DNA of 64,000 nucleotides from Bacteroidota bacterium (GTDB lineage Bacteria; Bacteroidota; Bacteroidia; Chitinophagales; Chitinophagaceae): positions 1-64,000 of the forward strand of contig JAGWRO010000078.1 in NCBI GenBank assembly GCA_028876495.1. The letters are read 5' to 3'. Below the pieces are notes generated by a model. The model was not told where the DNA came from. It did no database searches and saw only the letters and a list, made by a program, of their open reading frames with translations. Positions 145-60,793 of this stretch are shown in pieces. Within the stretch, counting starts at the first letter, position 1; each line of letters starts with the position of its first letter. Made by a program: the position numbers and the translations under genes.

Positions 145-180
145 ACAAAATAAAAATCTTCAATATTTATGTGTTTACTG
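145..180 (-). repeat. Intergenic CAGTAAAC element at the end of the DUF5522 gene
   Basis: On the minus strand, CAGTAAACACATAAATATTG is followed by AAGATTTTTATTTTG. The TAA of the CAG-TAA-AC is the gene's stop codon. Confidence 0.55.
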
Positions 181-375
181 GTTGGGTAAATTTTTCTTTT
201 TTGGTGATAATTCTTTTCTTGCTTTTTTGCCTGCATTTTCATAATCAAAAGGACAATGCCTGCATCCTTTGCCACAACAAAATCCTCTTTCCAAAAGATA
301 CTTTTCAGTCATCACCATTAAGCCTGATTCATCAAAATAAAAATGAATTTTTTCTATAAATTCTTCATTCGCCAT
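175..375 (-). CDS. DUF5522-type small cysteine-rich protein
   Basis: A 66-residue soluble protein with a compact cysteine motif, GFCCGKGCRHCPFDY, at residues 31-45 (Cys33, 34, 38, 41). It is preceded by a conserved-looking stretch (FDESGLMVMTEKYLLERG). This is the signature of the DUF5522 family, common in Bacteroidota and of unknown function; the cysteines suggest metal binding, which is inference. The start codon lies inside the end of trmB (11-nt overlap), so the two are probably translationally coupled. The tail is lysine-rich. The stop codon TAA is embedded in a copy of the CAGTAAAC intergenic element. Confidence 0.8.
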   Translation of the reverse strand: MANEEFIEKIHFYFDESGLMVMTEKYLLERGFCCGKGCRHCPFDYENAGKKARKELSPKKKNLPNQ

Positions 376-1066
376 TTTCTTCTTTTAAAATAGATTTGAG
401 CTCATCATCATTACCAGATAAATTTTCCGGCAATGAAAAACAGAGGTAAAAAATACAATTGCTTTTGGCGATATCCAGTTTTTCGTAATGAGTTTTTATA
501 GCCAATTCTTCCGTTACAGATTCCATTTCATAAACATCACTGATGTCTGCAATGAGCTGCAGATTATATAATTTAATAACCAGTTTTGTAAATTGATACA
601 GATCGGGAGAATCGGTTTTCAAATGAATTTTTGCACCCGGCTTTAGTATTTGCTGATAAAATCGCAAAAACTTCGGATGCGTCAATCTTTTTTTTGCTTT
701 TGAAATCCGGAGCTGCGGATCAGGAAAAGTGATCCAGATTTCTTCTACTTCGTCTTGCGAAAAGTAGTTGGTAATCTTATCGATCTGTGTTCTTAAAAAA
801 GCCACATTTTTCAATTGATTTTTCTGCGCAAATTTTGCGCCTACCCAAAGGCGGTTTCCTTTAATGTCAACACCTATAAAATTTTTTTGCGGATATAATT
901 GCGCAAGACCGGTTGTGTATTCTCCTTTGCCACAGGCGAGTTCAAGTACCAATTCATTTTTGTTATTAAAAAAATCTTTCCACTTTCCTTTCATATTTTC
1001 AGGATATTCCAACACGTTTGAAAATGTTTTTATCTCTCCAAACCTTTTTAATTTTTTTTGCGCCAT
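365..1066 (-). CDS. trmB: tRNA (guanine-N7-)-methyltransferase
   Basis: A class I SAM-dependent methyltransferase that makes 7-methylguanosine at position 46 of tRNA. The SAM-binding motif ELACGKGEYT lies near residues 40-50, followed by GVDIKGNRLW. The TrmB-specific segment TFPDPQLR...KKRLTHPKFL follows in the middle, and the length of 233 residues is normal. The start at 1066 (MAQKKLKRF) is preferred over an upstream in-frame ATG at 1129. Family proteins begin near here, and a TAnnTTTG promoter element (minus strand, 1073-1080) sits six bases before this ATG, which would put the upstream ATG outside the transcript. The gene overlaps the DUF5522 gene downstream. Confidence 0.93.
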   Translation of the reverse strand: MAQKKLKRFGEIKTFSNVLEYPENMKGKWKDFFNNKNELVLELACGKGEYTTGLAQLYPQKNFIGVDIKGNRLWVGAKFAQKNQLKNVAFLRTQIDKITNYFSQDEVEEIWITFPDPQLRISKAKKRLTHPKFLRFYQQILKPGAKIHLKTDSPDLYQFTKLVIKLYNLQLIADISDVYEMESVTEELAIKTHYEKLDIAKSNCIFYLCFSLPENLSGNDDELKSILKEENGE

Positions 1067-1072
1067 AGTTTG

Positions 1073-1080
1073 CAAATGTA
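1073..1080 (-). promoter_or_regulatory. Candidate -7 promoter element for trmB
   Basis: TACATTTG on the minus strand matches the Bacteroidota housekeeping -7 consensus TAnnTTTG. It ends six bases before the trmB ATG, which predicts a leaderless or near-leaderless transcript. No clear -33 TTTG is seen. Confidence 0.45.
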
Positions 1081-1114
1081 GCTTTGGTAAATTAAAAATG
1101 AATAAATGAATGTT

Positions 1115-1140
1115 GCAGTAAACAAACAAATAACCTGGAA
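1115..1140 (+). repeat. Intergenic CAGTAAAC element
   Basis: The core CAGTAAACAAACAAATAA lies in the divergent spacer between trmB and the DsbA-like gene. A 20-base stretch starting one base upstream of the core recurs exactly at 50853. The downstream GATTC block is poorly preserved here. Confidence 0.5.
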
Positions 1141-1208
1141 AATAAATTTATCACAGTTACAGAATTGTTTGCGAATTTCGGCAGGTTTATTGTCATAAAT
1201 TTATTCTC

Positions 1209-5289: not shown

Positions 5290-5601
5290 TCCTCGGCTTT
5301 TTCTGAACGTTGCAAAAATAACCTTTGATTTTTAAATTTGGGGTCACTGTTTGATTTCATCTTTATTTATAACAACTTTTTAGATCGGCAGTAAACAAGC
5401 AAATTTTTAATAATTTTATTCTATTATTCCTCAAATTCGAGTGTTTATTTCTAAGAAACTTAATATATTATTTTAAAGTGTAATTTTAAAACCATTTTTA
5501 CGCTAATAAATTAGTTTAAAAGAACAACAGATTAATTAGTATATAATCGGTATTATTATTGTGGATCAGATAAATGTTTTATGTATCCCTTAAAACTAAC
5601 T
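5290..5601. other. Divergent AT-rich spacer between mfd and a lipoprotein gene
   Basis: About 310 bases without a convincing gene. It is very AT-rich and must hold the promoters for both flanking genes, but no clear TAnnTTTG with a -33 partner was found. It contains one copy of the CAGTAAAC intergenic element with its core at 5389-5396. Confidence 0.5.
5388..5412 (+). repeat. Intergenic CAGTAAAC element
   Basis: The core CAGTAAACAAGCAAAT lies 100 bases upstream of the mfd start. The AT-rich 3' half is degenerate. It is one of about 16 copies in this window. Confidence 0.45.
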
Positions 5602-6165
5602 ATGAACAAAATATTTAGCCTTTTACTGTTTTTTGTTACGCTTCTTTTTTTCAGTTGTTCAACTGATCAAACTACTGTTCAAATAATACGTACGCCGCTT
5701 TTGCAGTTTGATTTCACCCCTTCCAATTCCTGGAAAGCTGATAATTATTCTATCTCAAATACTTCTAAAGTGGTGGTATATCCGCAGGACACCACTCTTC
5801 CTGCACAATTATATGATCGTTATACTTTGCAAGGCTCAGGTAAAGACCAATCAGGTCATACCTATCAGTTGGTGATTACCTTTGATGTTTCAGATAATAG
5901 CCAACTGGTGGGCATTTACAAAACAGGGTACACCTCCCAAAGAGGATTAGCGCAGGTTCAGTTGTTTGATCTCACTAATAAAAATGATTTATCAGTTTAC
6001 AATCTTTGTGCAGAAGATATATCTAATGATGTTTTGCAGATTCAGAAAGAAAAAGCTGATGAAAAAATTATTACAGGCGCTTTTCAAATGTCAGTTTGTA
6101 ATTCAAGGGATACGTCCCAAAAGTTGACCATAATGAACGGAACTATTAAAGATCTTAAATATTAA
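5602..6165 (+). CDS. Putative lipoprotein, unknown function
   Basis: A 187-residue protein with a signal peptide (MNKIFSLLLFFVTLLFFSC) whose lipobox-like end LFFSC places the lipidated cysteine near residue 19. The start at 5602 is chosen over an in-frame ATG at 5581 because it gives a normal lipoprotein signal. The mature part is polar and rich in S, T and D, with beta-strand-like segments and no recognised motif. It is followed after 10 nt by a second exported protein, so the two are probably co-transcribed. The function is not recognised. Confidence 0.7.
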   Translation: MNKIFSLLLFFVTLLFFSCSTDQTTVQIIRTPLLQFDFTPSNSWKADNYSISNTSKVVVYPQDTTLPAQLYDRYTLQGSGKDQSGHTYQLVITFDVSDNSQLVGIYKTGYTSQRGLAQVQLFDLTNKNDLSVYNLCAEDISNDVLQIQKEKADEKIITGAFQMSVCNSRDTSQKLTIMNGTIKDLKY

Positions 6166-6175: not shown

Positions 6176-7111
6176 ATGAAAGTTTTTTTACCCTCAAAAT
6201 ATAAATTCCTGTTTTTTGTTTTTCTGCTGTTAATGTCTTTTTCTATAAATATGGCTTATGGTCAAATTGATTCATCAAGAGTGCAAATCCCTCACCCGAT
6301 TCAACAGAATGCCGGCTTTGATGTAATTGTAAAACTAAACGGTGACCTTGTATACGGATTGGTAAAAGAAGTAGGCCCTTATTACATTTCGTACCAAAGA
6401 ACAGATATTCCTGATGGCCCTATTTATACCATTCCACGAAATGAAGTATATGTGATCAGTTATCGCAACCAGGTGAAAGATTATATTAATGGAAGAACTA
6501 TCGGGCCTTCGATACAGGATTCGATACCAACAGTTAAAACTGAAAATATTAGCAAGAATAATGGAGGCATTAATTTTGAAAACGGCAACCTTCATTTGGC
6601 ACTTGGCTTTTTAAGAAGTTTTTCAAAACTGAAAAATGTAAATAATTATTCTACTTCGGCTACTTTTCCGGTGGTTTCTGTAGCTTATGAAGTTAACTAT
6701 AAAAGTAATCTTCAATTGGGCCTGATGCTTGGCTTTGGTTCTCACAAGTTTTCTGATCAGAATTACAGCACTTACGACAGTACCAACAACAATATCAATA
6801 TAACCGAAAATATTTTTGGGTTATATGTTTATGGCAGGTATTATTTTTTGAATGGTTCATCAAGATTGCAACCTTACATTTTAGCCGGGCCGGGAATCAC
6901 CAGTTCAAATATTCATTCTGAAAATAAAATAAGTTTTACCAATGATAACTCACAAATCATTTTGGTAAAATCAGGCACACGTACAACAGGAGTTAGCCTA
7001 ATGGCGAGAGCTGGTGCCCAATATTTTGTAACTGATCAGTTCCGGGTTTCTTTGGATGCCGGCGTGGGTTTATCGGTAATAAAACTGGGTATATCATTCG
7101 CCTTGAAGTAG
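6176..7111 (+). CDS. Outer-membrane beta-barrel-like protein
   Basis: A 311-residue protein with a hydrophobic N-terminal signal ending around NMAYGQ. A short N-terminal domain at residues 50-100 contains KLNGDLVYGLVKEV and IPRNEVYVISYRN, typical of small Bacteroidota proteins that precede a barrel. The second half (from about residue 135) alternates hydrophobic and polar residues in strand-sized blocks with glycine-rich turns (LGLMLGFGSHKF, LYVYGRYYFL). It ends in LGISFALK, resembling a closing beta strand. The substrate or role is unknown. A different frame stays open past this stop to 7224 (see findings). Confidence 0.65.
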   Translation: MKVFLPSKYKFLFFVFLLLMSFSINMAYGQIDSSRVQIPHPIQQNAGFDVIVKLNGDLVYGLVKEVGPYYISYQRTDIPDGPIYTIPRNEVYVISYRNQVKDYINGRTIGPSIQDSIPTVKTENISKNNGGINFENGNLHLALGFLRSFSKLKNVNNYSTSATFPVVSVAYEVNYKSNLQLGLMLGFGSHKFSDQNYSTYDSTNNNINITENIFGLYVYGRYYFLNGSSRLQPYILAGPGITSSNIHSENKISFTNDNSQIILVKSGTRTTGVSLMARAGAQYFVTDQFRVSLDAGVGLSVIKLGISFALK

Positions 7112-8737: not shown

Positions 8738-8771
8738 ACAATAAAAATCCTTACAATTTCTTTGTTTACTG
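8738..8771 (-). repeat. Intergenic CAGTAAAC element after glyS
   Basis: Read on the glyS strand, CAGTAAACAAAGAAATTG follows the glyS TAA with no intervening base and leads into GGATTTTTATTG. This is a well preserved two-part copy of the repeated intergenic element. Confidence 0.6.
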
Positions 8772-10235
8772 TTAATTGCTAATTTTTTCATTAATTAATT
8801 TTCTTACATCATTTAATGCAATTCTTTCCTGTGTCATAGTATCGCGGTAGCGAATTGTGACGGTATTATCTTCTTTCGTCTGGTGATCGATGGTTACACA
8901 AAAAGGTGTTCCAATCGCGTCCATTCTGCGATAACGCTTTCCAATACTATCTTTTTCTTCGTAAAAAGTATGAAAGCTTTGCTTGCATTCGTTCATGAGG
9001 CCTTTGGCAATTTCCGGCAAACCATCTTTTTTTACCAAAGGAAGAATAGCTAATTTGTAAGGAGCAATTTTCGGCGGAATCCGCAAAACTACCCGGCTGT
9101 CTTCACTTCCATCTTCTTTCGTCCATTTTTCTTCAGCATAAGCGGTGCTTATAACGGTGAGGAACAAACGATCTAATCCTACAGATGTTTCTACTACATA
9201 CGGAATGTAATTACCATAAGGTTTTCCATCTTCGTTAAGTTCATTATCGAAATATTGCAATTTCTTTTTGCTCAGTTCCTGGTGTTGCTTAAGGTCAAAA
9301 TCGGTTCGCGAATGAATACCTTCCAGTTCTTTAAAACCAAAAGGAAATTCAAATTCAATATCTACAGCGGCATTGGCATAATGTGCGAGTTTTACGTGAT
9401 CATGATAACGCAATCTTTCCGCAGGAAGTCCGAGACTTTCGTGCCATTTTAATCTCTCTGCTTTCCAGTAATTGTACCATTCCATTTCGGTGCCGGGGCG
9501 AACAAAAAACTGCATTTCCATTTGCTCAAATTCGCGCATACGAAAAATAAACTGCCGTGCTACAATTTCATTTCTGAAAGCTTTTCCTGTTTGTGCAATC
9601 CCAAAAGGAATTTTCATTCTTCCCGTTTTTTGCACGTTTAGAAAATTTACAAAAATTCCCTGGGCAGTTTCAGGCCGCAAATAAATCGTGTCAGTTTCTC
9701 CGCTGATGCTTCCCAGTTTGGTTTCGAACATTAAATTGAACTGCCGAATATCAGTCCAGTTACAGGTTCCGCTGATGGAACATTTTATATTATTTTCTTC
9801 GATCAAACTTTTTAACCCAACGAAATCATCTTTGGAGAGAAATTTTTCCATTTTTGTGATGATCTCTTTTGCAAATTCACTCTTGCCAGTTGCAGCCTGT
9901 TCATCCGCAAAAGTTTCAATCAAATGATCAACCCGGTAACGCTTTTGGCTGTCTTTATTATCAATCATCGGGTCACTGAAATTATCGACGTGGCCACTTG
10001 CTTTCCATGTAAGCGGGTGCATAAAAATAGCGGCATCGATACCCACAATATTTTCATGCAACTGCGTCATACTCCTCCACCAGTAATCGCGGATATTCTT
10101 TTTTAATTGCGCACCGTTTTGCCCGTAATCATAAACTGCGCTCAATCCATCATATATTTCACTGGATGGAAAAATGTAACCGTATTCTTTGCAGTGCGCT
10201 ATAATTTCACTGAAATTGTTTAATTCGTTTGCCAT
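8772..10235 (-). CDS. glyS: Glycyl-tRNA synthetase (class II, single-chain)
   Basis: A 487-residue class II synthetase that charges tRNA-Gly. It is the single-chain alpha2 type used by Bacteroidota, not the alpha/beta GlyQ/GlyS form. Motif-like segments include IYLRPETAQGIFVNF, FRNEIVARQFIFRMREFEQMEMQFF and VVETSVGLDRLFL. The C-terminal anticodon-binding domain ends with RYRDTMTQER. The N-terminus (residues 1-80) contains the expected YDYGQNGAQLKKNIRDYWW. A candidate -7 element lies seven bases before the ATG. No abnormality was seen. Confidence 0.97.
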   Translation of the reverse strand: MANELNNFSEIIAHCKEYGYIFPSSEIYDGLSAVYDYGQNGAQLKKNIRDYWWRSMTQLHENIVGIDAAIFMHPLTWKASGHVDNFSDPMIDNKDSQKRYRVDHLIETFADEQAATGKSEFAKEIITKMEKFLSKDDFVGLKSLIEENNIKCSISGTCNWTDIRQFNLMFETKLGSISGETDTIYLRPETAQGIFVNFLNVQKTGRMKIPFGIAQTGKAFRNEIVARQFIFRMREFEQMEMQFFVRPGTEMEWYNYWKAERLKWHESLGLPAERLRYHDHVKLAHYANAAVDIEFEFPFGFKELEGIHSRTDFDLKQHQELSKKKLQYFDNELNEDGKPYGNYIPYVVETSVGLDRLFLTVISTAYAEEKWTKEDGSEDSRVVLRIPPKIAPYKLAILPLVKKDGLPEIAKGLMNECKQSFHTFYEEKDSIGKRYRRMDAIGTPFCVTIDHQTKEDNTVTIRYRDTMTQERIALNDVRKLINEKISN

Positions 10236-12840: not shown

Positions 12841-12876
12841 TCAGTAAATCAACAAATTTTACAGATTCTTATTTTG
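12841..12876 (+). repeat. Intergenic CAGTAAAY element
   Basis: CAGTAAATCAACAAATTTT is followed by ACAGATTCTTATTTTG, a well preserved two-part copy between aspS and yebC. It reads against both flanking genes, which are on the minus strand. Confidence 0.55.
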
Positions 12877-12882
12877 GTATAT

Positions 12883-13593
12883 TTATTTCAAATTGTGATA
12901 CACTTTTTGCACGTCATCATCCTGCTCCAGATGATCTACCAATTTTAAAACTTCTTCCGCATCTTCTTCTGAAAGTTCTACGGTTGTTGTCGGAATTCTT
13001 GTAAGTTCTGCAGTAATTACTTCTATCTTTTTTTCTTCCAAAGCCTTGCTCATATTACCAAATTCAACGAAAGGTGTACGGATGATAATATTTCCTTCGC
13101 TGTCTTCACCAATTTCTTCCAGGCCGTAATCGATCAACTCCAGCTCAAGTTCTTCAATATCCAGCTTTTCATTTTTGATTTTAAATTCTCCCATATGATT
13201 GAACATGAAAGCAACGCTTCCGCTCGTGCCAAGAGATCCGCTATTCTTATTAAAATGCATGCGCACATTGGCAACGGTTCTTGTAGGATTATCAGTTGCT
13301 GTTTCAACTAAAATAGCTACGCCGTGTGGTGCATATCCTTCATAAACTTCTTCATGATAATCTGATTTATCCTTTCCCATTGCACGTTTGATCGCAGCTT
13401 CCACACGATCTTTTGGCATGTTCACTGCCTTGGCATTTATAATGCAGCGGCGCAGGGCGGCGTTATTATCCGGATCAGGACCGCCTTGTTTCACGGCAAT
13501 ATCTATTTCTTTGCCAATGCGCGTAAATTGTTTGGCCATTTTATCCCATCGTGCAAACATGGTTGATTTTCTTACTTCAAATATTCTTCCCAT
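12883..13593 (-). CDS. yebC: YebC/PmpR family DNA-binding/translation-associated protein
   Basis: A 236-residue protein with the family's N-terminal basic region ([23 protein letters not shown]) and the conserved [31 protein letters not shown] block, followed by [14 protein letters not shown] and [11 protein letters not shown]. Members were annotated as transcriptional regulators; newer work links relatives to relief of ribosome stalling. The C-terminal half is acidic, as usual. It is a single gene with no fused domain. Confidence 0.93.
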
Positions 13594-13875: not shown

Positions 13876-15192
13876 ATGAAAGTAATGAAGTTCGGTGGTA
13901 CAAGTGTTGGAAAACCAGAAAGAATGGCTGAGATCAGGAAACTGATCACCAAAGATGATGAAACAAAAATAATTGTTCTGAGTGCTTTAAGCGGCACCAC
14001 CAATGCGCTTACAGAAATAAGTGATTCATTAGCAAAAGGTGATCGCGAAATTGCTAAACAGCGTATCAATGCACTGGAAAATCATTACCAGAATTTTATA
14101 GTTGATCTTTTAAAAAGCGAAGCTTATTTTCAAAAGGCAAAGGGAATACTTGCAGAGCATTTTGAGTTTTTGAATATTATTTTAAAGATATCTTACAGCG
14201 AAGCATTGAATAAAGATATTTTGGCACAAGGCGAATTGCTGAGTACCAAACTTTTTAGCATTTATTTAAATGAGCAGGAGATCGCTCATGTATGGCTTCC
14301 GGCGCTTGACTTTATGACCATTGATCAAAACAATGAACCCCAGGTGGCGGCGATAAGAGAAAAACTAACAAAATTGCTGGAGGCGAATAAAGGAACCAAA
14401 CTTTTTGTGACGCAGGGATACATTTGCCGTAATGCAAAAGGAGAAATTGATAATTTGAAACGTGGTGGCAGCGATTACAGTGCTTCGTTGATTGCGGCTG
14501 CCGTTGACGCTTCTGTTTGTGAAATATGGACCGACATAAGCGGTATGCACAATAATGATCCGCGAATTGTTAAGAACACAAAACCTATCAAACATTTATG
14601 TTTTGAAGAGGCAGCAGAACTTGCTTATTTCGGCGCCAAAATTTTGCATCCTGCCAGCATCTGGCCTGCGCAATATTTTAATTTTCCGGTTAAGTTGCTG
14701 AATACAATGGAACCTGAAGCGCCAGGTACTTTAATAGAAAGAGATTCGGATTCGGAAGGTGTAAAAGCGATCGCTGCAAAAGATTCTATCACAGCGATAA
14801 AAATAAAAAGCAGCCGTATGTTGCTGGCTTATGGATTTTTAAGAAAGATTTTTGAGGTGTTTGAAAAATATGAAACTTCCATCGACATGGTCACTACTTC
14901 TGAAGTGGCTGTGTCTCTCACTATTGATAATGATTCCAATTTGCAACAAATCATTAAAGAATTGGAGATGTTTGGAAATATAGAAATCGATAAAGACCAG
15001 ACTATTGTTTCCATCGTTGGATACCATATTTCCAAAACAGAACATCTGCTTGCAAAAGTTTTCAACAGCTTAACAGAAATTCCGGTGCGAATGGTAAGTT
15101 TTGGCGGAAGCCAGCATAATATTTCAATTCTCGTTTCGCATGAGCACAAAGAAAAAACGCTTCAGCTTTTGAACAAAGGTTTGTTTGAATAG
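13876..15192 (+). CDS. lysC: Aspartokinase (monofunctional)
   Basis: A 438-residue enzyme that phosphorylates aspartate at the entry to lysine, threonine and methionine synthesis. The N-terminal kinase domain starts with MKVMKFGGTSVGKPERM. Further hallmarks are FVTQGYICRNAKGEIDNLKRGGSDYSASL (substrate and ATP site) and WTDISGMHNNDPRIV. The C-terminal regulatory part (from about residue 300) holds two ACT-like units, including KIFEVFEKYETSIDMVTTSEV. No homoserine dehydrogenase fusion is present. The gene is preceded by about 280 nt of AT-rich spacer. Feedback specificity is unknown. Confidence 0.93.
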   Translation: MKVMKFGGTSVGKPERMAEIRKLITKDDETKIIVLSALSGTTNALTEISDSLAKGDREIAKQRINALENHYQNFIVDLLKSEAYFQKAKGILAEHFEFLNIILKISYSEALNKDILAQGELLSTKLFSIYLNEQEIAHVWLPALDFMTIDQNNEPQVAAIREKLTKLLEANKGTKLFVTQGYICRNAKGEIDNLKRGGSDYSASLIAAAVDASVCEIWTDISGMHNNDPRIVKNTKPIKHLCFEEAAELAYFGAKILHPASIWPAQYFNFPVKLLNTMEPEAPGTLIERDSDSEGVKAIAAKDSITAIKIKSSRMLLAYGFLRKIFEVFEKYETSIDMVTTSEVAVSLTIDNDSNLQQIIKELEMFGNIEIDKDQTIVSIVGYHISKTEHLLAKVFNSLTEIPVRMVSFGGSQHNISILVSHEHKEKTLQLLNKGLFE

Positions 15193-15233: not shown

Positions 15234-15266
15234 CAGTAAATCCAACAAATTTCCGGGATTTTTAAT
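15234..15266 (+). repeat. Intergenic CAGTAAAY element
   Basis: CAGTAAATCCAACAAATTT is followed by CCGGGATTTTTAATTT, located after the aspartokinase stop and reading in its sense direction. This is one of the clearest two-part copies. It is preceded by several GTTTAG units (15197-15230). Confidence 0.6.
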
Positions 15267-15983: not shown

Positions 15984-16028
15984 TTTTCAATAAAATTTGT
16001 ATAAGATAAAATTTGTGATAATTTATTC

Positions 16029-16037
16029 GTTTACTAT
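16029..16037 (-). repeat. Intergenic AGTAAAC element at the end of the coiled-coil gene
   Basis: On the minus strand, TAG (the stop) is the start of TAGTAAACGAATAAATTAT, a degenerate copy. The gene's stop codon thus falls inside the element, as also seen at 173-180. Confidence 0.4.
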
Positions 16038-16309
16038 GCTACAGGAGGCTCTTCATCCAGTTTATTGTCTTTAATAAACTTGTTTTTTACCCCGGTAAAT
16101 TCTTCCACAAGCTGGGAAGCTGTATTCAAAGTTTCATCGGCATTTGAATGTATACCAGGTAATTTTTGATCAAGTAAATAATTGCCAAGATTGATATTTT
16201 CAGCTTCTAATTGAGCCACCTTTTTCAATAATGAAGCCTGGCTGTTGACAATATCATTCAACTCGCGGATCATTTTTTCCATCGAGTTGAGTTTTTCTCT
16301 TTTATCCAT
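16034..16309 (-). CDS. Small coiled-coil protein, unknown function
   Basis: A 91-residue soluble protein starting MDKREKLNSMEKMIREL; an in-frame ATG 33 nt upstream is possible but adds a less likely extension. Residues 5-50 form a probable coiled coil with heptad leucines (MEKMIRELNDIVNSQASLLKKVAQLEAEN). The rest is polar and acidic, ending EEPPVA. No family was recognised. It lies between fabH and the SDR on the same strand. Its stop codon abuts a copy of the intergenic AGTAAAC element. Confidence 0.6.
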   Translation of the reverse strand: MDKREKLNSMEKMIRELNDIVNSQASLLKKVAQLEAENINLGNYLLDQKLPGIHSNADETLNTASQLVEEFTGVKNKFIKDNKLDEEPPVA

Positions 16310-44022: not shown

Positions 44023-44040
44023 AGGTTATTCCCGAAACAG

Positions 44041-44258: not shown

Positions 44259-47200
44259 ATGAACAGGCACTTCTTTTTTCAGATAAAGGATTACTTCCTT
44301 ACAGTAGCTTTCCTTATTTTTTCTTTTTTGCTGGTAAAAGTTTCATTTGCACAACCGGGCCATGAAAAAGGATTGCCATTTATTACCAACTACAGCGCCG
44401 GAGAGTCTGGCAGCCGTGGTACCTGGAGTGTAATCCAGGGAAATGACGGCAGAATGTATTTTGGTAGTTCAACCAACAAGGGAAATATTGTTGAGTATGA
44501 TGGAGTAAACTGGAATAAAATTGCAGCTCCTTATTCTTCCGCTGTTGCACGGTGCTTTGCAAAAGATAATAACGGCAGAATTTATTTTGGTGGCTCCGGC
44601 GATTTCGGATACCTCGATAAAGATGAGCTCGGCGAAACTGTTGAACATTCCCTTTTGCAGTTTGTTCCAAAAGATAAACGAGAATTTTTTGATGTCTGGT
44701 CAGTTAATACTGCGGGCAATGAGGTCTTTTTTTTATCAAGAGAAAGAATATTCCGGCTTACCAAAACGGGAGAAGGTAAAAATGAAACATGGAAAGTGAA
44801 AACGTGGGAGCCGCAAACCCATTTCATGTACAGTTTTTATGGGGATAATAATTTGTATGTGCACGAACAAAATGTTGGCCTTCTCAAAATGGAAAGCGAT
44901 TCGCTTGTTTTAATTCCCGGAAGTGAATTCCTTGGAAATGACAGGATGCAGGTAATGTTGCCTTACGACGGAAGCGAAAATTCAACGAACAACAAAAAAT
45001 ATCTCCTTGCTACTTTTACTCATGGTCTTTATCTCTTTGACGGTAAAAATTTTACTCCATTCAAAACATCGGACGACAAGATTTTTACCGGCAACATGGT
45101 TTACAAAGGTCTTTTTGTAAATGGAAAATATTTGTTTTCTGTTTTGGGAACGGGATTGGTTATTATGGATCATTCCGGCAAAGTTGAACAAATTATCAAC
45201 CGCGATGCAGGCTTGAAAAGCAATATTATTTATGCGCCATATATTGATTCAAGAGGGCAGTTGTGGTTAGGACTGGATGTAGGAATATCACGCCTCGATT
45301 ATAATTCGCCATTTAGCCTTTACAATTCTCAAAATGGTGTTGGGGCTTCTTTACTGTCTATGATGCGTGCACCTGATGGCAATTTATATGCCGGTACCCA
45401 AAATGGCTTGCTGCATTATAACGTTTCAGTTAATCGTTTTGAACAGGTAAATGAAATTCCCAAAAACCAGGTTTTTGCTTTGTTGGTGGATGGGAAAAAT
45501 CTGCTTGTAGGAGCAGGAGGTTTATTCTTAATAAAAGATGGTAAGATAATTACCGTTCAACCTTCGGTAACTAATAATCTCAATGTTTCAAGTTTAGCTC
45601 TTTCTATGAAATATCCCAATTTGTTGTATACCGGAACTTCTTTTGGAATTGCAATTTTTCAACGCAATCCCGGAAGCGAAAGAGGATGGGATTACTTAGG
45701 TTATTTGACCGGGATAAAAGGTGGAGAATTTCACAACATGGTAGAAGATAGCGAAGGAAATCTTTGGGCTATTTCGCGCAATAATATCTTATACAAAATC
45801 ACTCCTTCATTTAACGCTGCAGGACATCCGGATATATCTAAATTTAATATTGTTGATATTTCAACCTCCACGAATGGCTATGATTCTACAATCAACTCTT
45901 TATTCGCATTGAATCAACGTATATACTTTTCTTCAGATTCTTCTACTTATACTTTTAACTCCAAAAACAACCGGTTTGAAAAAACGCTTTTTGAAGGATT
46001 TAAACATTATGTGGCTACCCAGGATACAACAACCGGTAAAATCTGGCTCAGAGAAATAGCTGCCGACAGTTCAAAATCAATAATTGCAACTCCGAAACCC
46101 GGTGGCGGTTATCAAATAGATTCCACCAGTTTGTTACCCATTTCTTCAGAAACTTCTGGTGCAGTTTATCCCGATATTGATCAAACTGCATGGTTTAATT
46201 CTACCGACGGAATTATTCATTTTGATGAAAAACAAAAGGTAAATTACGATGCGCCTTATAAAACAATCATCAGCAAGATCAGTTCGGATACCTTTCGTTT
46301 AAACCCAACTGCTTCCTCTGCAACACCTGCCGAAATAAAATTTAATCGTAGTTCACTCAGGTTTGAATATGCTTCTCCCTTTTATGAACAGGAGAATAAA
46401 ACCCAATATCAAACCTGGATGGAAGGATTTGAAAAAACATGGAGTAAGTGGGGGCCAAATACTTATAAAGAATACACCAATCTTCCAGCCGGGAAATATG
46501 TTTTTCATGTCAGGGCAAAAAATGTATACGATAAAATAAGTAATGAAGCTACTTATTCGTTTACTATTCTACCTCCATGGTATAGTACCTGGTGGGCTTA
46601 TTTGTTGTACGCACTTGTCTTTTTGTTAGTCGGTTTTTTAATATTGAAATGGCGTACCCGGAAGCTGGAAGAAAAACATCGGGAACTGGAGAAAACGATC
46701 AAAGAAAGAACGGCTGAATTAAGTAATAAAGTAGAAGAACTGGCAGTTATTAATAGTGTTCAGCAAGGTTTGGTAGCTCAGTTAGATATCAATAAGATAT
46801 ATGAACTGGTAGGTGAAAAAATTCGTGAAATATTTAATGCTCAAACAATTGTAATTGCTACATATGATCTTAAATCTAATAATATAATTGAGAAATATTG
46901 CTATGAAAAAGGAGACCGGACCTTAATGGAACCCTACCAAGCTATTGGTTTTGGCAAGCATGTTATTGAAAACAGACAACCGATATTACTAAATAAGAAT
47001 GTAGTTGAAGAAGGGAAAAAATACGGAAGTGTAACAATGGGAGGGGAGCCTGCAAAATCGTTGGTTTTTGTACCCATGATTGAAAATGACCAGGCAACCG
47101 GACTTATCACTTTGCAGAATATGGACCAGGAAAATGCGTTTTCCGAATCTGATGTCAATTTATTGAAAACGCTTGCCAATAGTATGTCAGTCGCATTAAA

Positions 47201-50200
47201 AAGTGCTCTTCTTTTTGATGAAACCATCCGACTTCTTAAAGAAACAGAACAAAGGAATGCTGAATTGGCCGTTATTAACAGTGTTCAGGAAGGCTTGGTG
47301 GCACAGATGACTATGGAGGATATTTATACGTTGGTTGGAAATAAAATACGTGATTTATTTGATGCGCAAACGGTAGTAATAAGAAGTTACAATTATGAAA
47401 CTGAAGAAGAAGTTTACAACTACACTATTGAAAAGGGAGAAAGGCAAAGCATCGTTGAAAGGCCATTTGATGATTTTACTCGGCATATTCTCGAAACCAA
47501 AAAGCCGGTTATTGTAAACGAAAATTTTCTTGATTTTATTTCAAAATTTTCTGATGAAGCGCACCTTGTAGGTGAAGTGCCTAAATCAGCAGTATTCGTT
47601 CCAATGATTCACGGTGGAGTAGTTACCGGCAATGTAAGCCTTCAAAATATGGATCATGAAAATGCCTTTTCTGAATCTGATGTAAACCTTCTTAGCACCC
47701 TCGGCAACAGTATGAGTATCGCTTTAAAAAGTGCCCATCTATTTGACGAGACCACAAGGCTTTTAAAAGAGACTGAACAAAGAACGGCAGAGCTTTCAGT
47801 AATTAACAGCGTGCAGGAAGGTCTTGCTAAAGAACTGCATATGCAGGGAATTTACGAATTGGTAGGTGATAAACTGAGCGAGGTATTGCATACACTCGAT
47901 ATTGACATTCGCTTGTTTTCGCCGGAAATTAACGAAGTATCTTATCCTTATGTTCGTGATCATGGGAAACGGATCAATGTTCCACCCAGCAAGTTCTTAG
48001 GAATGTCGAAAAAGGTTTATGAGACAAGGCAACACATTATTATTAATGAAGATTTGCCTGGAAAAATGAAAGAATTTGGTTCGGTCTTGCTCCCCGGCAC
48101 CCAAATGGAAAAATCATTTATGGCGGTGCCGATAATGGTTTCTAACAACCCCATCGGAATGGTGAGCATGAGCAATTATGAAAAGGAAAATGCATTCAGC
48201 GATTCTGATTTACGTCTTCTTCAAACAGTTGTTTCTGCAATGAGCGTTGCATTGGAAAATGCCCGCCTATTTGATGAAACTACCCGACTACTAAAAGAAA
48301 CTGAACAGCGTACGGCCGAATTGGGCGTAATTAACAGCGTACAGGAAGGGCTTGTGAAAGAAATGAATATAGAGGCTATATATGAACTGGTTGGAAAACG
48401 CTTGTGTGATTTATTTCCTGATAGCCAAACCCTGGTTATAAGGACTTTTGATCATTCTAAAGGATTAGAGAATTGGCAGTATGCTATAGAAAAAGGAGTT
48501 CGCCTTCACAGCGAACCGAGGCCTGTAAACTGGATCAATAAAGAATTGATCGTTTCCAAAAAACCAATCCTGATTAATGAAAACTTCCTGGAAACAGCAA
48601 AGAATAAAGGAGGTATAAACGTTACCATCGGTGAGGCACCAAAATCAGTAATATTTGTTCCAATGGTAGTTGGTGATGTGGTAAAGGGATCAGTGAGCCT
48701 GCAAAATGTGGATACGGAAAATGCATTTACCGAATCAGATCTACGTTTACTAACAACGCTTACCAACAGTATGAGTGTAGCACTGGAAAATGCTCGCTTA
48801 TTTGATGAAACCAACCATCTTTTGGCCCAGGCAAAACAGCGGGCTTCAGAATTATCTACCGTTAATAATATCAGCAAAGCGCTGGCGTCCAAATTAAATC
48901 CCAGCGATCTGATTCAACAGGTGGGTGATCAGTTGCGCGATTTATTCAATGCAAATATTGTATATCTCGCCTTGCTAAATAAGAAAACGAACATCATCCA
49001 TTTCCCTTATCAGTATGGAGATAATATGCCTTCTATGAAATTAGGCGAGGGGCTTACTTCAAACATTATTTTAAAAGGCGACCCATTGCTTTTTAATAAA
49101 GATGTGGATGAAAAAACAGACCAGTTGGGGTTAAACAGGGTAGGAATTCCTGCCGCTTCATATTTGGGCGTTCCCATTCCTGTAGCTGATGAAATCATTG
49201 GTGTTCTGAGTGTTCAAAGTACCGAACAGGAAAATCGTTTTGACGAAAATGATCTGAGGTTGCTTTCAACTATTGCTTCTTCTGTTGGTGTTGCCTTGAG
49301 AAACGCTCAGCTATTTGAAGAGGTGGAACAGGCAAAAATGGAAGCTGAAAAAGCTACCAAAATTGCAGAAAAAGCCAATGAAGCGAAAAGCGCTTTTCTT
49401 TCTACCGTGAGCCACGAATTAAGAACGCCGCTTACTTCGGTTTTGGGTTTTGCCAAAATTATCAGCAAAAGGCTTCACGATAAAATCTTTCCAATAGTAG
49501 ATCAATCTGATCCTAAAACCGAAAAAACAGTAAACCAGATCAATGAAAATCTGAATGTGGTAATTTCTGAAGGAGAAAGGTTAACCCACCTGATAAATGA
49601 CGTTCTGGATCTGGCCAAGATCGAAGCCGGAAGAATGGAATGGAACCAGGAAAATGTTTCACTTGGCGAGGTTGTAGAAAGAGCTATATCTGCTACCACC
49701 TCACTTTTTGAGCAGAAAAACATTAAACTGGTTAAAAAAATTGATGAGAACGTTCCTGACATTATCGGTGATACCGACAAATTGATCCAGGTTGTAATCA
49801 ACCTGTTCTCTAATGCCGTGAAATTTACAGAGAAGGGAGATGTAACCTGCAAGGTTTACCAAAAAGGTAACGAAGTTATTGTGAGTGTAAAAGATACCGG
49901 CATTGGTATAGCATCCGAAGATTATGGAGCCGTATTCGAGCAGTTTAAGCAGGTTGGTGGTGATACACTTACTGATAAACCAAAAGGGACAGGCCTTGGG
50001 TTACCTATTTGTAAAGAAATCGTTGAGCATCACGGTGGCCGCATCTGGGTGGACAGCCAGGTTGGTAAAGGGAGCACTTTTTCTTTTGCCATCCCCTTTG
50101 TCCCTTCCGAAAATAATAGCCATCAAAAACCGATTCATTTAAATGACCTGGTAAGGCAACTTAAAGAACAAATGGTTTTTCCTGAATTAAAGCCAAATGG

Positions 50201-50807
50201 CGGCAATTCAACCATTCTTGTTGTAGATGACGATGATTCTATCCGTTCGTTACTGGAACAGGAATTAAGTGAAGCTGGATATTTAATAGAGCAGGCGACT
50301 AATGGCAAACAGGCACTTGAATGCATAAGGAAAAACCGCCCTGACCTGATTATTCTTGATGTGATGATGCCCGAAATGAACGGCTTTGATGTTGCCGCAA
50401 TTTTAAAAAATGATCCTCAAACCATGGATATTCCCATCATTATTTTATCCATTGTGCAGGATAAGGCGAGAGGTTTCCGAATTGGGGTAGACAGGTATTT
50501 AACCAAACCAATTGATACCGCCCAGCTTTTTACCGAAGTGGGAAATTTATTGGAACAAGGTAAATCAAAGAAAAAAGTGATGGTGGTGGATGAAGATGCC
50601 GCAGCCGTTCGTTCACTTACAGAAGTGTTGCAGGCGAAGGGATACCAGGTGGTGGAGTCTGATGGAAAAGAGCTGGCGGAACAAGCTATCGCAACCAAAC
50701 CTGATATCATCATTTTAAATTCTGTTTATTCAGGGAAGCAGGAAATAGTGAAAACATTACGATTTGAAAAAGGCCTTGAAAATGTTTTGTTTTTCATTTA
50801 CCAGTAA
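44259..50807 (+). CDS. Giant hybrid histidine kinase: periplasmic propeller, five GAF domains, two receivers
   Basis: A 2182-residue sensor. A signal peptide (to about residue 32, VSFAQ) precedes a periplasmic two-component-regulator propeller (about 45-680) with DGRMYFGSSTNKG-type repeats, then a Y_Y_Y domain (about 690-768) and a membrane segment (about 775-797, WAYLLYALVFLLVGFLIL). The cytoplasmic part has five tandem GAF domains (about 820-1687) joined by LLKETEQR-AEL-VINSVQ linkers, a HisKA domain with His1719 in SHELRTPLTSVLGFAK, an ATPase (NLFSNAVKFT, DTGIGI, GTGLGLPICKEI), a receiver with Asp2034 (LIILDVMMP), and a shorter second receiver whose phospho-site is Asn2154. It lacks the AraC output of classical hybrid two-component systems. 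A single-domain regulator and a cyclase gene follow downstream on the same strand. Confidence 0.9.
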   Translation: MNRHFFFQIKDYFLTVAFLIFSFLLVKVSFAQPGHEKGLPFITNYSAGESGSRGTWSVIQGNDGRMYFGSSTNKGNIVEYDGVNWNKIAAPYSSAVARCFAKDNNGRIYFGGSGDFGYLDKDELGETVEHSLLQFVPKDKREFFDVWSVNTAGNEVFFLSRERIFRLTKTGEGKNETWKVKTWEPQTHFMYSFYGDNNLYVHEQNVGLLKMESDSLVLIPGSEFLGNDRMQVMLPYDGSENSTNNKKYLLATFTHGLYLFDGKNFTPFKTSDDKIFTGNMVYKGLFVNGKYLFSVLGTGLVIMDHSGKVEQIINRDAGLKSNIIYAPYIDSRGQLWLGLDVGISRLDYNSPFSLYNSQNGVGASLLSMMRAPDGNLYAGTQNGLLHYNVSVNRFEQVNEIPKNQVFALLVDGKNLLVGAGGLFLIKDGKIITVQPSVTNNLNVSSLALSMKYPNLLYTGTSFGIAIFQRNPGSERGWDYLGYLTGIKGGEFHNMVEDSEGNLWAISRNNILYKITPSFNAAGHPDISKFNIVDISTSTNGYDSTINSLFALNQRIYFSSDSSTYTFNSKNNRFEKTLFEGFKHYVATQDTTTGKIWLREIAADSSKSIIATPKPGGGYQIDSTSLLPISSETSGAVYPDIDQTAWFNSTDGIIHFDEKQKVNYDAPYKTIISKISSDTFRLNPTASSATPAEIKFNRSSLRFEYASPFYEQENKTQYQTWMEGFEKTWSKWGPNTYKEYTNLPAGKYVFHVRAKNVYDKISNEATYSFTILPPWYSTWWAYLLYALVFLLVGFLILKWRTRKLEEKHRELEKTIKERTAELSNKVEELAVINSVQQGLVAQLDINKIYELVGEKIREIFNAQTIVIATYDLKSNNIIEKYCYEKGDRTLMEPYQAIGFGKHVIENRQPILLNKNVVEEGKKYGSVTMGGEPAKSLVFVPMIENDQATGLITLQNMDQENAFSESDVNLLKTLANSMSVALKSALLFDETIRLLKETEQRNAELAVINSVQEGLVAQMTMEDIYTLVGNKIRDLFDAQTVVIRSYNYETEEEVYNYTIEKGERQSIVERPFDDFTRHILETKKPVIVNENFLDFISKFSDEAHLVGEVPKSAVFVPMIHGGVVTGNVSLQNMDHENAFSESDVNLLSTLGNSMSIALKSAHLFDETTRLLKETEQRTAELSVINSVQEGLAKELHMQGIYELVGDKLSEVLHTLDIDIRLFSPEINEVSYPYVRDHGKRINVPPSKFLGMSKKVYETRQHIIINEDLPGKMKEFGSVLLPGTQMEKSFMAVPIMVSNNPIGMVSMSNYEKENAFSDSDLRLLQTVVSAMSVALENARLFDETTRLLKETEQRTAELGVINSVQEGLVKEMNIEAIYELVGKRLCDLFPDSQTLVIRTFDHSKGLENWQYAIEKGVRLHSEPRPVNWINKELIVSKKPILINENFLETAKNKGGINVTIGEAPKSVIFVPMVVGDVVKGSVSLQNVDTENAFTESDLRLLTTLTNSMSVALENARLFDETNHLLAQAKQRASELSTVNNISKALASKLNPSDLIQQVGDQLRDLFNANIVYLALLNKKTNIIHFPYQYGDNMPSMKLGEGLTSNIILKGDPLLFNKDVDEKTDQLGLNRVGIPAASYLGVPIPVADEIIGVLSVQSTEQENRFDENDLRLLSTIASSVGVALRNAQLFEEVEQAKMEAEKATKIAEKANEAKSAFLSTVSHELRTPLTSVLGFAKIISKRLHDKIFPIVDQSDPKTEKTVNQINENLNVVISEGERLTHLINDVLDLAKIEAGRMEWNQENVSLGEVVERAISATTSLFEQKNIKLVKKIDENVPDIIGDTDKLIQVVINLFSNAVKFTEKGDVTCKVYQKGNEVIVSVKDTGIGIASEDYGAVFEQFKQVGGDTLTDKPKGTGLGLPICKEIVEHHGGRIWVDSQVGKGSTFSFAIPFVPSENNSHQKPIHLNDLVRQLKEQMVFPELKPNGGNSTILVVDDDDSIRSLLEQELSEAGYLIEQATNGKQALECIRKNRPDLIILDVMMPEMNGFDVAAILKNDPQTMDIPIIILSIVQDKARGFRIGVDRYLTKPIDTAQLFTEVGNLLEQGKSKKKVMVVDEDAAAVRSLTEVLQAKGYQVVESDGKELAEQAIATKPDIIILNSVYSGKQEIVKTLRFEKGLENVLFFIYQ
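46720..49330 (+). repeat. Five tandem GAF-domain coding units
   Basis: Five consecutive GAF-encoding units of about 510-530 bases each. The first four begin with a near-identical linker (AEL-VINSVQ-GL) and end with LRLLTTLxNSMSVAL-like and LFDET blocks; the fifth is more divergent (STVNNISKALASK). The pattern indicates intragenic duplication. Confidence 0.75.
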
Positions 50808-50852: not shown

Positions 50853-50889
50853 GCAGTAAACAAACAAATAATAGGGATTCTTTTTTTAC
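50853..50889 (+). repeat. Intergenic CAGTAAAC element
   Basis: CAGTAAACAAACAAATAATA is followed by GGGATTCTTTTTTT, a complete two-part copy in the sense direction after the kinase gene. The T-run resembles the tail of a terminator. A loose AATTAGCT/AGCTAATT inverted repeat precedes it (50810-50845). Confidence 0.6.
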
Positions 50890-53030: not shown

Positions 53031-53049
53031 TCTTGTTTAAGCAAATAGG

Positions 53050-53076
53050 AATCTTTAGAAAAAGTAGGTTTACTAT
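53050..53076 (-). repeat. Intergenic AGTAAAC element
   Basis: On the minus strand, TAGTAAACCTACTTTTTC is followed by TAAAGATTCCTATTT. It lies between convergent genes, next to a CCCGGA/TCCGGG hairpin. Confidence 0.5.
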
Positions 53077-57761: not shown

Positions 57762-57943
57762 TATTTTAGATCGGAAATATCGCAATTTGATTTGAAAATT
57801 TATCATTGATAAAAAAGAAGTTGTGAAGCGGGTAAAATTATCCAATAAAAGTTGGATTTTTTTATGAAGATAAAGTAAGAATGCAAGTCAAAATAAAAAA
57901 AGCCGTTAAATGTTTATCTGCTATGTAAGAATCTTATAGAGAT

Positions 57944-57998: not shown

Positions 57999-59135
57999 AT
58001 GGTAAATAAGCTTCTTTTCATGTTTTTGATGCTGTTTTTTTTAGTAAAAACAGATGCCCAATCCAATCCGGTGTTCGTTTCCGGCACCGAAGGTTATAAA
58101 TCATTCCGTATCCCTGCCATTATCAAGGCAAAGAATGGTGACTTGCTGGCGTTCTGTGAAGGAAGGGTAAATGGCAGCGGGGATTTTGGGAACATAAAAA
58201 TTGTTTTAAAAAGGAGTACAGATGGAGGAAAAACATGGGGTTCTTTGCAAATTGTTGTAAGCAATGCCAGTTTGCAGGCCGGTAATCCTGCACCTGTGGA
58301 AGATTGTACTGATGGCCGGTTTCCGCAGGGCAGGATATTCCTTTTTTATAATACAGGTGATGGACAGGAGATGGAACTAAGAAAGGGCAAAGGGCATCGC
58401 GATGTTTTTTACAAAACAAGTATTGACAATGGAAAAACATGGAGTGATCCAACCGATATTACTTTACAGGTAAACCGGATTGATCAACCCGCAACGAATC
58501 CGCTTTGGAACTTTAAAGAAGATTGGCGGTCTTATGCAAATACACCTGGCCATGCCCTTCAATTCAATGAAGGAAAATATAAAGGAAGGATTTATATTGC
58601 GGCCAATCATTCCTCAGGGCCACCCAAACTGCAATTAAGAGATTACCATGCACATGGATTTTATTCAGATGATCATGGCGCCACTTTTCATTTGAGTGAA
58701 ACAGTTCCATTTGAGGGTTCCAATGAAAGTACGGCAGCAGAATTAACGCATAATTCATTGATCATGAACAGCCGGAATCAAACGGGTACGTATCGAATTA
58801 TTTCTTTAAGTAGTAATGGTGGTGAAACATGGGATACCACGTTCGTTGATTATAATTTACCAGATCCTGTTTGCGAAGGAAGCTTGTTAAACATCGGAAC
58901 AAAAAAAGAAAAATCCATTTTAGCTTTTTGTAATAACGATGATAAAAAAAAGCGCGACAGCCTCACCTTACGCATTAGTTTTGACGAAGGAAAAAGCTGG
59001 AAAAAAAATATTTTAATTGAACCAAAGAATACAGGCTATTCAGACATTGTTAAGTTGTCAAAGAAAAAAATTGGTGTATTGTATGAAACTGACGGCTACA
59101 AAGAAATAAAATTTGTAATTGTCAAGTGGAAGTAA
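57999..59135 (+). CDS. Exo-alpha-sialidase (BNR-repeat glycoside hydrolase)
   Basis: A 378-residue secreted enzyme. Signal peptide ends at KTDAQ. The FRIP motif holds the catalytic arginine Arg37, followed by a typical CEGR motif. Five Asp-boxes are visible (STDGGKTW, SIDNGKTW, SDDHGATF, SSNGGETW, SFDEGKSW), giving the six-blade propeller of GH33-type sialidases. It would release terminal sialic acid from glycoconjugates in the periplasm or at the surface. No sialic-acid transport or catabolic genes are next to it, so the physiological use is open. It has no type IX sorting domain. Confidence 0.9.
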   Translation: MVNKLLFMFLMLFFLVKTDAQSNPVFVSGTEGYKSFRIPAIIKAKNGDLLAFCEGRVNGSGDFGNIKIVLKRSTDGGKTWGSLQIVVSNASLQAGNPAPVEDCTDGRFPQGRIFLFYNTGDGQEMELRKGKGHRDVFYKTSIDNGKTWSDPTDITLQVNRIDQPATNPLWNFKEDWRSYANTPGHALQFNEGKYKGRIYIAANHSSGPPKLQLRDYHAHGFYSDDHGATFHLSETVPFEGSNESTAAELTHNSLIMNSRNQTGTYRIISLSSNGGETWDTTFVDYNLPDPVCEGSLLNIGTKKEKSILAFCNNDDKKKRDSLTLRISFDEGKSWKKNILIEPKNTGYSDIVKLSKKKIGVLYETDGYKEIKFVIVKWK

Positions 59136-59198
59136 ACTTAATGATTGCCAGGCCAAAGCACTTTTTTACCTCAATCAATTTTTGAAGTCTTATAATTT

Positions 59199-60680
59199 CT
59201 ACCTACTATAGTTTGGTGCTTCTTTTGTGATTTCCACATCATGCGCATGACTTTCACGCATTCCCGCATTGGTGATTTTGATAAAAGTTGCCTGTTGTAA
59301 AGCACGGATATCCTTTGCACCGCAATAACCCATTCCTGCCCGCAGACCGCCTGTAAACTGGTGTGCTACTTCTGACAAGAATCCTTTGTAAGCAATCCGT
59401 CCCTCAATTCCTTCCGGAACGAATTTTTTTACTTCCTTATCCTGAAAATAGCGATCGCTGCTTCCTTGTGCCATTGCGCCTAAAGAACCCATACCGCGAT
59501 ATTGCTTAAATTTTCTTCCTTCATAAATAATGGTTTCTCCCGGGCTTTCTTCTGTTCCGGCAAACACGCCACCCATCATTACACAATCGGCGCCGGCAGC
59601 AATAGCTTTTACCATATCGCCCGTGTACCTGATTCCGCCATCTGCTATGATGCCGATATTTTTATTGCTGATAGCTTTCGAAACTTCCAACAAAGCCGTT
59701 ATTTGAGGAACTCCTGCGCCGGCTACAATTCGGGTAGTGCAGATAGATCCAGGCCCTATACCTACTTTTATCGCATCTGCGCCTGCCGCTGCCAATGCTT
59801 TCGCGCCTGCCCCTGTAGCTATATTGCCGGCAATCACTTCCAGGTTTTTGAAATCTTTTTTAATTTTTTTAAGTGCATCAATTACACCTTTTGTATGGCC
59901 GTGGGCACTGTCAAGTGCAATGGCGTCTACACCTACCTGTTGTAGTGCATAAACGCGGTCGCTGATGTCATTGGTAATACCCACTCCGGCACCAACAAGC
60001 AATCTTCCAAATTGATCTTTCGCCGCAAGTGGATGATTGTGCACCTGCAGAATATCACGATAGGTGATCAATCCTTTTAAAATACCTTTTTTATTTACAA
60101 CAGGTAATTTTTCAATTTTATATTTTCTTAAAATAGATTGAGCCTTTTTTAAATCGGTTCCTTCGGGCGCGGTGATCAACCCTTCTTTCGTCATTAATTC
60201 ACTTACAGGCCGCTTCATGTTGTCTTCAAACCTAAGATCCCTGTTGGTTAATATTCCAACCAATATTCCATCAGCATCAACAATTGGAATACCACCGATC
60301 TTGTTTTCTTTCATAAGAAGTAAAGCATCGCCAATAGTAGCATCCAGCTTTAACGTGATCGGATCTAAAATCAATCCGCTTTCACTTCTTTTTACTTTAC
60401 GAACCTGGGCTGCCTGTTGTTCAATACTCATGTTTTTATGCAGAAATCCAAGCCCACCTTCTCTTGCCAACGCAATCGCAAGGTTTGCTTCTGTAACCGT
60501 ATCCATTGCCGCGCTGAGCATCGGAATATTGAGCGTAATGTTTTTTGTAAGCCGGGTTGAGGTATTTACATCGCGTGGTAAAACCTCGCTATAAGCCGGA
60601 AGCAAGAGCACGTCATCGAAGGTTAATCCTTCACCAAAAATTTTTTTTACGGGGGAATTAGGTTTGTTTAGCGTAGCCAT
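59199..60680 (-). CDS. guaB: Inosine-5'-monophosphate dehydrogenase
   Basis: A 493-residue TIM-barrel enzyme that converts IMP to XMP, the first committed step to guanine nucleotides. It has [21 protein letters not shown] at the start, a Bateman module of two CBS domains (about 95-215) inserted in the barrel, the catalytic cysteine in [18 protein letters not shown], and the mobile flap [10 protein letters not shown]. The start is the ATG at 60680 (MATLNK). A TTG two codons earlier overlaps the -7 promoter element and is unlikely. A TTTG 18 bases upstream of TACCTTTG completes a good promoter. No defect was seen. Confidence 0.97.
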
Positions 60681-60683
60681 GCG

Positions 60684-60713
60684 CAAAGGTAATAAAACTC
60701 GTAATCCTTCAAA
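60684..60713 (-). promoter_or_regulatory. guaB promoter, both Bacteroidota elements
   Basis: On the minus strand, TTTTG is followed after 18 bases by TACCTTTG, matching the -33 TTTG and -7 TAnnTTTG consensus. The -7 element ends three bases before the guaB ATG, predicting a leaderless mRNA. Confidence 0.55.
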
Positions 60714-60762
60714 AGCCTATTTTCTGATTTTTAAAAATCATTCACAAAACCCAAAATTAAAA

Positions 60763-60793
60763 ACAGGAAGCTTCATTTTTTGTTGGTTTACTG
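60763..60793 (-). repeat. Intergenic CAGTAAAC element after dprA
   Basis: On the minus strand, CAGTAAACCAACAAAAAATG leads into AAGCTTCCTGTTTTT. It begins 16 bases after the dprA stop in the sense direction. Confidence 0.55.

Follow-up and report, generated by a model that had tools for sequence, protein, structure and literature searches.

A 34-bp non-palindromic repeat abundant at gene ends in five species of one Chitinophagaceae genus, a candidate recognition site for a DNA-binding protein

Whole systems have come to light through short scattered motifs, as Chi, DUS/ComP (DUS, DNA uptake sequence), MatP and REP/RAYT (repetitive extragenic palindromes and their REP-associated tyrosine transposases) illustrate, and the 34-bp element described here, which recurs between the genes of a 64,000-nucleotide stretch (hereafter the window; contig JAGWRO010000078.1, positions 1 to 64,000) of a Chitinophagaceae bacterium (assembly GCA_028876495.1), shares features with several described systems. 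REP and bacterial interspersed mosaic elements (REP/BIME) with RAYT are likewise short, mainly extragenic and of high copy number, and they often lie near gene ends. Genome-wide sites bound by proteins that organise the chromosome (of the IHF/HU, MatP or gyrase type) are comparable in being asymmetric and mainly intergenic, with AT tracts and a similar footprint size, while intrinsic (Rho-independent) terminators also occupy a place behind stop codons and possess a T-rich tail. Finally, the DUS of Neisseria and the uptake signal sequences (USS) of Pasteurellaceae are described, in the available parts of the sources, as clade-specific motifs with hundreds to thousands of copies in both orientations, enriched in tail-to-tail gaps, and extended USS motifs consist of a core followed by AT-rich stretches, as does the element (PMC1852404, PMC3630211, PMC2346458). 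A sequence-only reading of the window had proposed about 16 copies of a two-part motif, taken as a mobile repeat remnant, a lineage-specific 3'-end processing or termination signal, or a protein binding site, and our results partly support this interpretation as a whole.

Our analysis confirmed the repeat, which greatly exceeds chance expectation. Indeed, a strict 16-mer with a gap of 0-6 nt occurs 85 times in the whole genome (4.70 Mb, 99 contigs), while its reversed control does not occur. An iterated matrix detected 111 sites of at least 20 bits and 121 of at least 17 bits in 464 kb (the window, positions 1-320000 of contig C24 and 80 kb of contig C80, not a random sample), and 0 at both cut-offs in a Markov resample and in the reversed sequence. 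Note that this matrix was trained on the same DNA that was counted; the independent test is a matrix built with the window excluded, which found 17 window sites of at least 15 bits (16 at 20 bits or more), compared with a mean of 0.12 and a maximum of 1 site of at least 15 bits in 60 dinucleotide shuffles (the thresholds of 15, 18 or 20 bits were set by us). With this matrix, 14 of the 16 cores listed by the sequence-only reading scored at least 20 bits, and the recurring two-part motif is thus genuine; the remaining two are a copy with a 1-nt insertion (15234) and an apparently split one (30145), and two intergenic copies had been missed. The 464 kb represent 9.9% of the genome and contain 13 of its 85 strict copies, so that these counts suggest about 700-1,100 copies per genome.

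The consensus, CAGTAAACnAACAAATWWnnnnGATTYYTRTTTT (iterated matrix, 464 kb), is 34 bp long and non-palindromic, and its geometry is fixed: for 56 of 89 strong first halves, a good second half lies exactly 22 nt from the first base, with single cases shifted by +1 and by +7, so that the spacer of 6-10 nt initially proposed does not hold. For 31 of the 89, a weak second half alone was found (background 1/89). The T-run that had been noticed after the motif does occur, and it belongs to the element itself. Informative positions are grouped around positions 3.5, 14 and 24, that is, we infer, one helical turn apart. Mutual information over the 111 sites displayed strong dependence between neighbours 12-14 alone, which corresponds to an AAA/TTT switch that keeps the AT tract, and values just over the largest of 50 shuffles for the position pairs 8-11 and 20-21. 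No stem covariation was seen in these sites, in agreement with the shared stem-loop reported as lacking, and nothing was conserved in the flanks of 13 strict copies.

Regarding the neighboring genes, 19 of the 111 sites are gene-centred, 1 lies at an edge, and the rest occupy gaps between genes that are co-directional (53), convergent (25) or divergent (13); genes were called with a crude hexamer caller (82-92% of our genome called coding), and the gap classes and the 'deep intergenic' category are approximate. The density reaches 3.55 sites per kb within 60 nt of a stop codon, compared with 0.64 at 61-150 nt, 0.34 in deep intergenic DNA, 0.81 within 120 nt of a start and 0.049 in coding DNA, which establishes the intergenic enrichment and the location at 3' ends. 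Consistently, 63% of the 89 intergenic sites are found at most 35 nt from a stop, whereas only 14% of 4000 randomly chosen intergenic positions are that close. Element density is highest in convergent gaps, and among gaps of 34-79 nt a copy is held by 8/18 convergent but only 4/53 co-directional ones. Because any copy in a convergent gap is necessarily sense for one neighbour and antisense for the second, orientation was judged from co-directional gaps alone, where 26 sense and 27 antisense copies confirm that orientation varies; a cursory look at replication polarity gave 30 plus-strand and 41 minus-strand copies in C24. In addition, some genes terminate within an element at fixed registers; these include 7 antisense cases at -7 (on the element's TAA) and 3 sense cases at -6 (CAG TAA). 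Two copies share a gap in only 6 of 274 gaps of at least 30 nt, and terminator-forming pairs are therefore not common. The statement that no copy lies in coding DNA is nearly true for the window and fails over the 464 kb, given the gene-centred sites. A promoter role was rejected, the copies being placed behind stops in either orientation. At 306 gene ends of our genome, CAGTAAAC was enriched by 19.1 standard units, while no gene-end 8-mer exceeded 4.7 standard units in two relatives without bulk copies (G016, 118 ends; G001, 110 ends; 74% called coding, under-called); an alternative gene-end motif of like strength in these two was discarded, no comparable 8-mer being present in these smaller samples.

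The distribution among genomes supports the 'lineage-specific' label. Among 58 relatives, strict copies number 90 in the sister species (G018), 77 in G011, 63 in G005 and 43 in G014, whereas the other 15 genomes of the genus have 0-4 and 39 further family or order genomes 0-2, with a reversed control of 0 or 1 per genome. The bulk carriers are only five species of one Chitinophagaceae genus, a small and mostly uncultured group, and they form a clade with an ultrafast bootstrap of 100 in a ten-genome tree of seven proteins, which covers 10 of the 20 genus genomes and G014 sparsely. Strict copies were present in 22/394 genomes of a family sample (82 in our genome, followed by G001 with 4) and in 13/395 of a class sample, where all except our genome have 1; neither sample includes G005, G011, G014 or G018. 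A separate scan of the family with the model was limited to 22 scored candidates in each genome, and its counts saturate. Control relatives searched over 200 kb each gave 0 sites in G016 and 2 in G001. The latter holds a few good copies (up to 38.5 bits in model-picked loci), and by reading, its counterpart is truncated at one and shifted by 1 nt at the other of our sites 57456 and 73532. On contig C13 of G013, copies share stretches with segments of 69-89% identity to our C24, but they themselves fall outside the aligned parts; they were possibly acquired by transfer. In the species collection, named records with the motif are mostly Chitinophagaceae or unplaced Bacteroidota metagenome assemblies, and one labelled Desulfotignum reaches 16.8 bits only.

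Two side observations concern this distribution. The TTT variant at positions 12-14 makes up 11-20% of the copies in G000, G018 and G011 and 0-4% in G005 and G014 (23-119 copies per genome), a split that may possibly represent a dialect inside the clade. Seven copies in G317, G013, G017, G221 and G016 lie in the central part of repeats of ~200 bp between open reading frames (ORFs); such repeats (L159, L166, L167, L155 and L171) are imperfect inverted ones with ends like CTAAC.../...GTTAGC, and by our reading they look like integron attC-like cassette arrays common to different Chitinophagaceae genera.

Our comparisons between species also suggest that the element is kept by position. Our genome and the sister species are mostly 83-95% identical, and among the 18 of 111 sites with alignable flanks in the stretches compared (the remainder being dropped), 17 were kept without change of orientation, and the only copy lost was a weak in-gene match; reciprocally, 17/17 copies of the sister were retained in our genome. 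Over the 17 pairs, substitutions affected 18/288 informative positions (6%), compared with 19/97 uninformative positions within the element and 155/998 flanking positions (15.5%), with Fisher P values of 2e-5 and 5e-4 (gapped columns are excluded, 58 of them inside elements). Informative positions are thus kept by purifying selection. At ~75% identity, our marked gene ends were also marked in G005 (4/7), G011 (6/9) and G014 (3/6), while our unmarked ends carried a copy in 3/22, 5/15 and 5/16 cases, respectively; as the margins predict 1.7, 4.1 and 2.2 shared ends, the sharing is above chance, though not strongly so, and 4 of the 13 shared ends have a flipped orientation. Pairs between G005 and G014 (86%) displayed retention, decay by substitutions or small indels, and several unalignable places.

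A fixed geometry and a constraint that tracks information content are the marks of a binding site, and together with the use of both orientations, the selection by position and the lack of a covarying stem they make this option the best supported of those proposed. On these grounds, the element is probably a double-stranded DNA recognition site of a putative sequence-specific DNA-binding protein particular to the clade. Such a protein would probably read the core CAGTAAACnAAC together with the AT tracts at positions 12-17 and 23-33, which may be bent, and since the informative positions would lie one helical turn apart, the contacts may fall on one face. The site would work in either orientation, with copies kept by purifying selection, and a protein bound within 60 nt behind stops, where most copies sit, would disturb neither coding nor promoters. 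As for the function, the leading candidate, rather than termination, is a chromosomal role (architecture, or the insulation or handling of supercoils between genes), although taken by itself it is somewhat doubtful. Several points weigh against the binding-site interpretation. The second half is weak behind the 31 strong first halves mentioned above, turnover at ~75% identity is substantial, so that many single sites must be dispensable over time, and an architecture model does not directly explain why the copies keep so close to stop codons and not just to intergenic DNA. The search for a partner gave no binding protein either: HU/IHF (PF00216) gave 1-4 matches per genome with no clade difference, and an extra HU/IHF copy was discarded as a partner, as these counts do not separate the clade. 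To our knowledge, the consensus matches no IHF/HU-, MatP- or gyrase-type site, and the copy number is higher than for MatP-like systems. We tentatively put forward, as a possibility worth considering, that the clade has evolved a 'gene-end mark' used throughout the genome: a new chromosomal protein would bind the 34-bp site in either orientation just after stop codons, and the mark would act as an insulator between genes or as a self-DNA tag independent of type IV pili; no description of the element, or of such a system in Bacteroidota, was found in the titles and abstract openings of the open-licence literature.

By analogy with DUS, the element may instead be a self-DNA tag preferred by a surface or periplasmic receptor, whose biased uptake, followed by recombination, would spread and maintain the copies; we consider this unlikely. 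It is indeed a high-copy, orientation-free, over-represented and clade-specific motif, as DUS-type motifs are. However, a driven tag should be tolerated at 61-150 nt from stops and in deep intergenic DNA, where copies are few, and the copy behind dprA means little here, as this gene is common in bacteria. The type IV pilus/type II secretion ATPase (PF00437) was over the cut-off in 0/20 genus genomes (weaker matches occur in 18, and completeness is only 72-87% for the other four clade genomes), whereas 14/14 control-ring genomes have matches, 13 of them over the cut-off; the known receptor machinery thus seems absent, and type IV pilus uptake was rejected. The element also differs from DUS/USS in its length (34 bp versus ~9-12 bp), its lower in-gene share (17%, or 19/111, compared with 34%, or 635/1874, for the DUS of N. 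meningitidis) and the rarity of two copies per gap.

It would be very unlikely that the element is a 3'-end signal, i.e., a terminator, roadblock or RNA processing site ending transcripts. The location of the copies 0-60 nt behind stops, their highest density in convergent gaps, the T-rich second half and the hairpins seen by eye beside the CAGTAAAC end of several copies all agree with such a signal, but sense and antisense copies are equally common in co-directional gaps, and elements in either orientation contain or directly adjoin stop codons; a roadblock at such a copy would, we infer, shorten the message. Furthermore, a hairpin with a T-run is no rarer where the element is present (25% of 36 convergent ends against 14% of 44 without it; 31% of 42 co-directional ends against 10% of 111), and a replacement of hairpin terminators was therefore discarded. 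In relatives without bulk copies (66-67% called coding, under-called), the corresponding values are similar, with 19% of 32 and 21% of 24 for convergent ends and 16% of 44 and 5% of 57 for co-directional ends. A sense copy of 30.6 bits (34897..34930, +) even lies in the 96-nt spacer between rpoB (31062..34871) and rpoC (34968..39260), and another sense copy of 34.6 bits lies inside a long ORF. At the rpoB-rpoC position, neither G001, G016, G003 and G013 nor G014 and G009, where the locus is broken, have a site of at least 12 bits, and no rpoB/rpoC match was obtained from G018, G005 and G011. With neither a GC stem nor a preferred orientation, and coexisting with hairpins, the element is not a general terminator, and the termination signal proposed by the sequence-only reading is disfavoured.

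The same holds for the mobile repeat remnant, in which a short mobile repeat that inserts preferentially at gene ends would have multiplied in an old burst and left the copies as relics; we regard this as highly improbable. The clade-specific abundance, the fixed gene-end registers (which would fit insertion into 3' coding ends) and the copies within ~200-bp repeats of cassette-like arrays in other genomes would be in line with it. However, the flanks are not conserved, the 18 comparisons with the sister species contain no empty/filled pair, more distant pairs differ by point changes and small indels or do not align, and the informative positions are constrained; the conserved ends or flanks and the presence/absence polymorphism of miniature inverted-repeat transposable elements were thus not found in the 13 copies and 18 comparisons examined. 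Y1 transposases (PF01797) have only 2 matches in our genome, one with stops, and occur in all 20 genus genomes with no clade excess. REP are defined, in the part of the source available, as GTAG- or CGTC-tagged palindromes (PMC3733652), and a RAYT/REP origin was rejected for a non-palindromic element with no covarying stem and no such excess. Lastly, a structured RNA was dismissed, as there is no covarying stem and Rfam 15 gave 0 matches at gathering cut-offs in the window and, at E<=5, 11 matches in 60 kb, none of them at the element. The Flavobacterium RNA motif Flavo-1, which occurs in either orientation and often outside transcripts according to the accessible part of its description (PMC9723704), was absent from both scans; it serves as a caution, since a DNA element of Bacteroidota may be taken for an RNA. 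Separately, an RNase P RNA of class A (249.7 bits) was seen at L018 5586-5963 (+).

Within the window, most copies follow a gene end. On the plus strand, 12842..12875 (37.1 bits) follows a yebC-type gene (12883..13593, -), antisense to it and 7 nt from its stop, and 50854..50887 (39.1 bits) lies behind 44259..50807 (+), a gene end that has sense copies in G005, G011 and G014 as well; the copy 15234..15268 (+), behind an amino acid kinase/ACT gene (13876..15192, +), reaches only 15.4 bits because of its 1-nt insertion. On the minus strand, 8738..8771 (33.0 bits) abuts the stop codon of a class II tRNA synthetase gene (8772..10235, -) and 16003..16036 (26.8 bits) overlaps that of the ORF 16034..16309 (-), while 25435..25468 (22.2 bits) is antisense, 25 nt behind the stop of 18204..25409 (+). 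The copy 42536..42569 (28.8 bits) is located ~35 nt behind the stop of the ORF 42605..43114 (-) and 44034..44067 (29.9 bits), antisense, 11 nt behind that of 43402..44022 (+), both kept in the sister species. Convergent gaps hold 39329..39362 (33.5 bits), between rpoC and 39369..40160 (-), and 53042..53075 (23.5 bits), which has a GC hairpin beside its core end and is also kept in the sister species. The copy 6196..6229 (26.3 bits), absent from the earlier list, lies behind 5581..6165 (+), and the start of the next gene is uncertain (6176 in the ORF list, 6233 with the hexamer caller). As a further example, 60760..60793 (32.9 bits) is sense, 15 nt behind the stop of dprA (60809..61909, -), an end with sense copies in G018, G005 (19 bits) and G014 and none in G011; dprA encodes a winged-helix domain and adjoins guaB.

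The remaining copies are 147..180 (-, 36.3 bits), a weak match inside a gene at 46533..46566 (-, 19.0 bits; not listed before), and three in divergent gaps, 1116..1149 (+, 27.6 bits, second half weak), 5389..5422 (+, 29.4 bits) and 57890..57923 (-, 24.7 bits), the last also newly found. For the latter, G018 carries a copy behind guaB (59199..60686 in the window) instead, and no match in the G018 stretches compared reached the end of the gene 57999..59135; this divergent copy is perhaps a former gene-end copy. The apparently split element (30099..30152, -) consists of CAGTAAA at 30146-30152 and the rest at 30099-30125 (scored as a site at 30099-30132, 18.2 bits). The 20-bp imperfect palindrome CCTGCCTGCCGGTAGGTAGG at 30126-30145 seems to split it, and no further copy of this palindrome was found within 4 mismatches elsewhere in the 464 kb. 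The window also has very long ORFs, 44259-50807 and 53099-55687, the latter a PKD/CHU_C type IX secretion protein.

Altogether, this clade keeps hundreds of selected 34-bp sites at its gene ends, while the other 15 members of the genus have next to no strict copies, and this gene-end location makes chromosome insulation or self-DNA recognition concretely testable in Bacteroidota.

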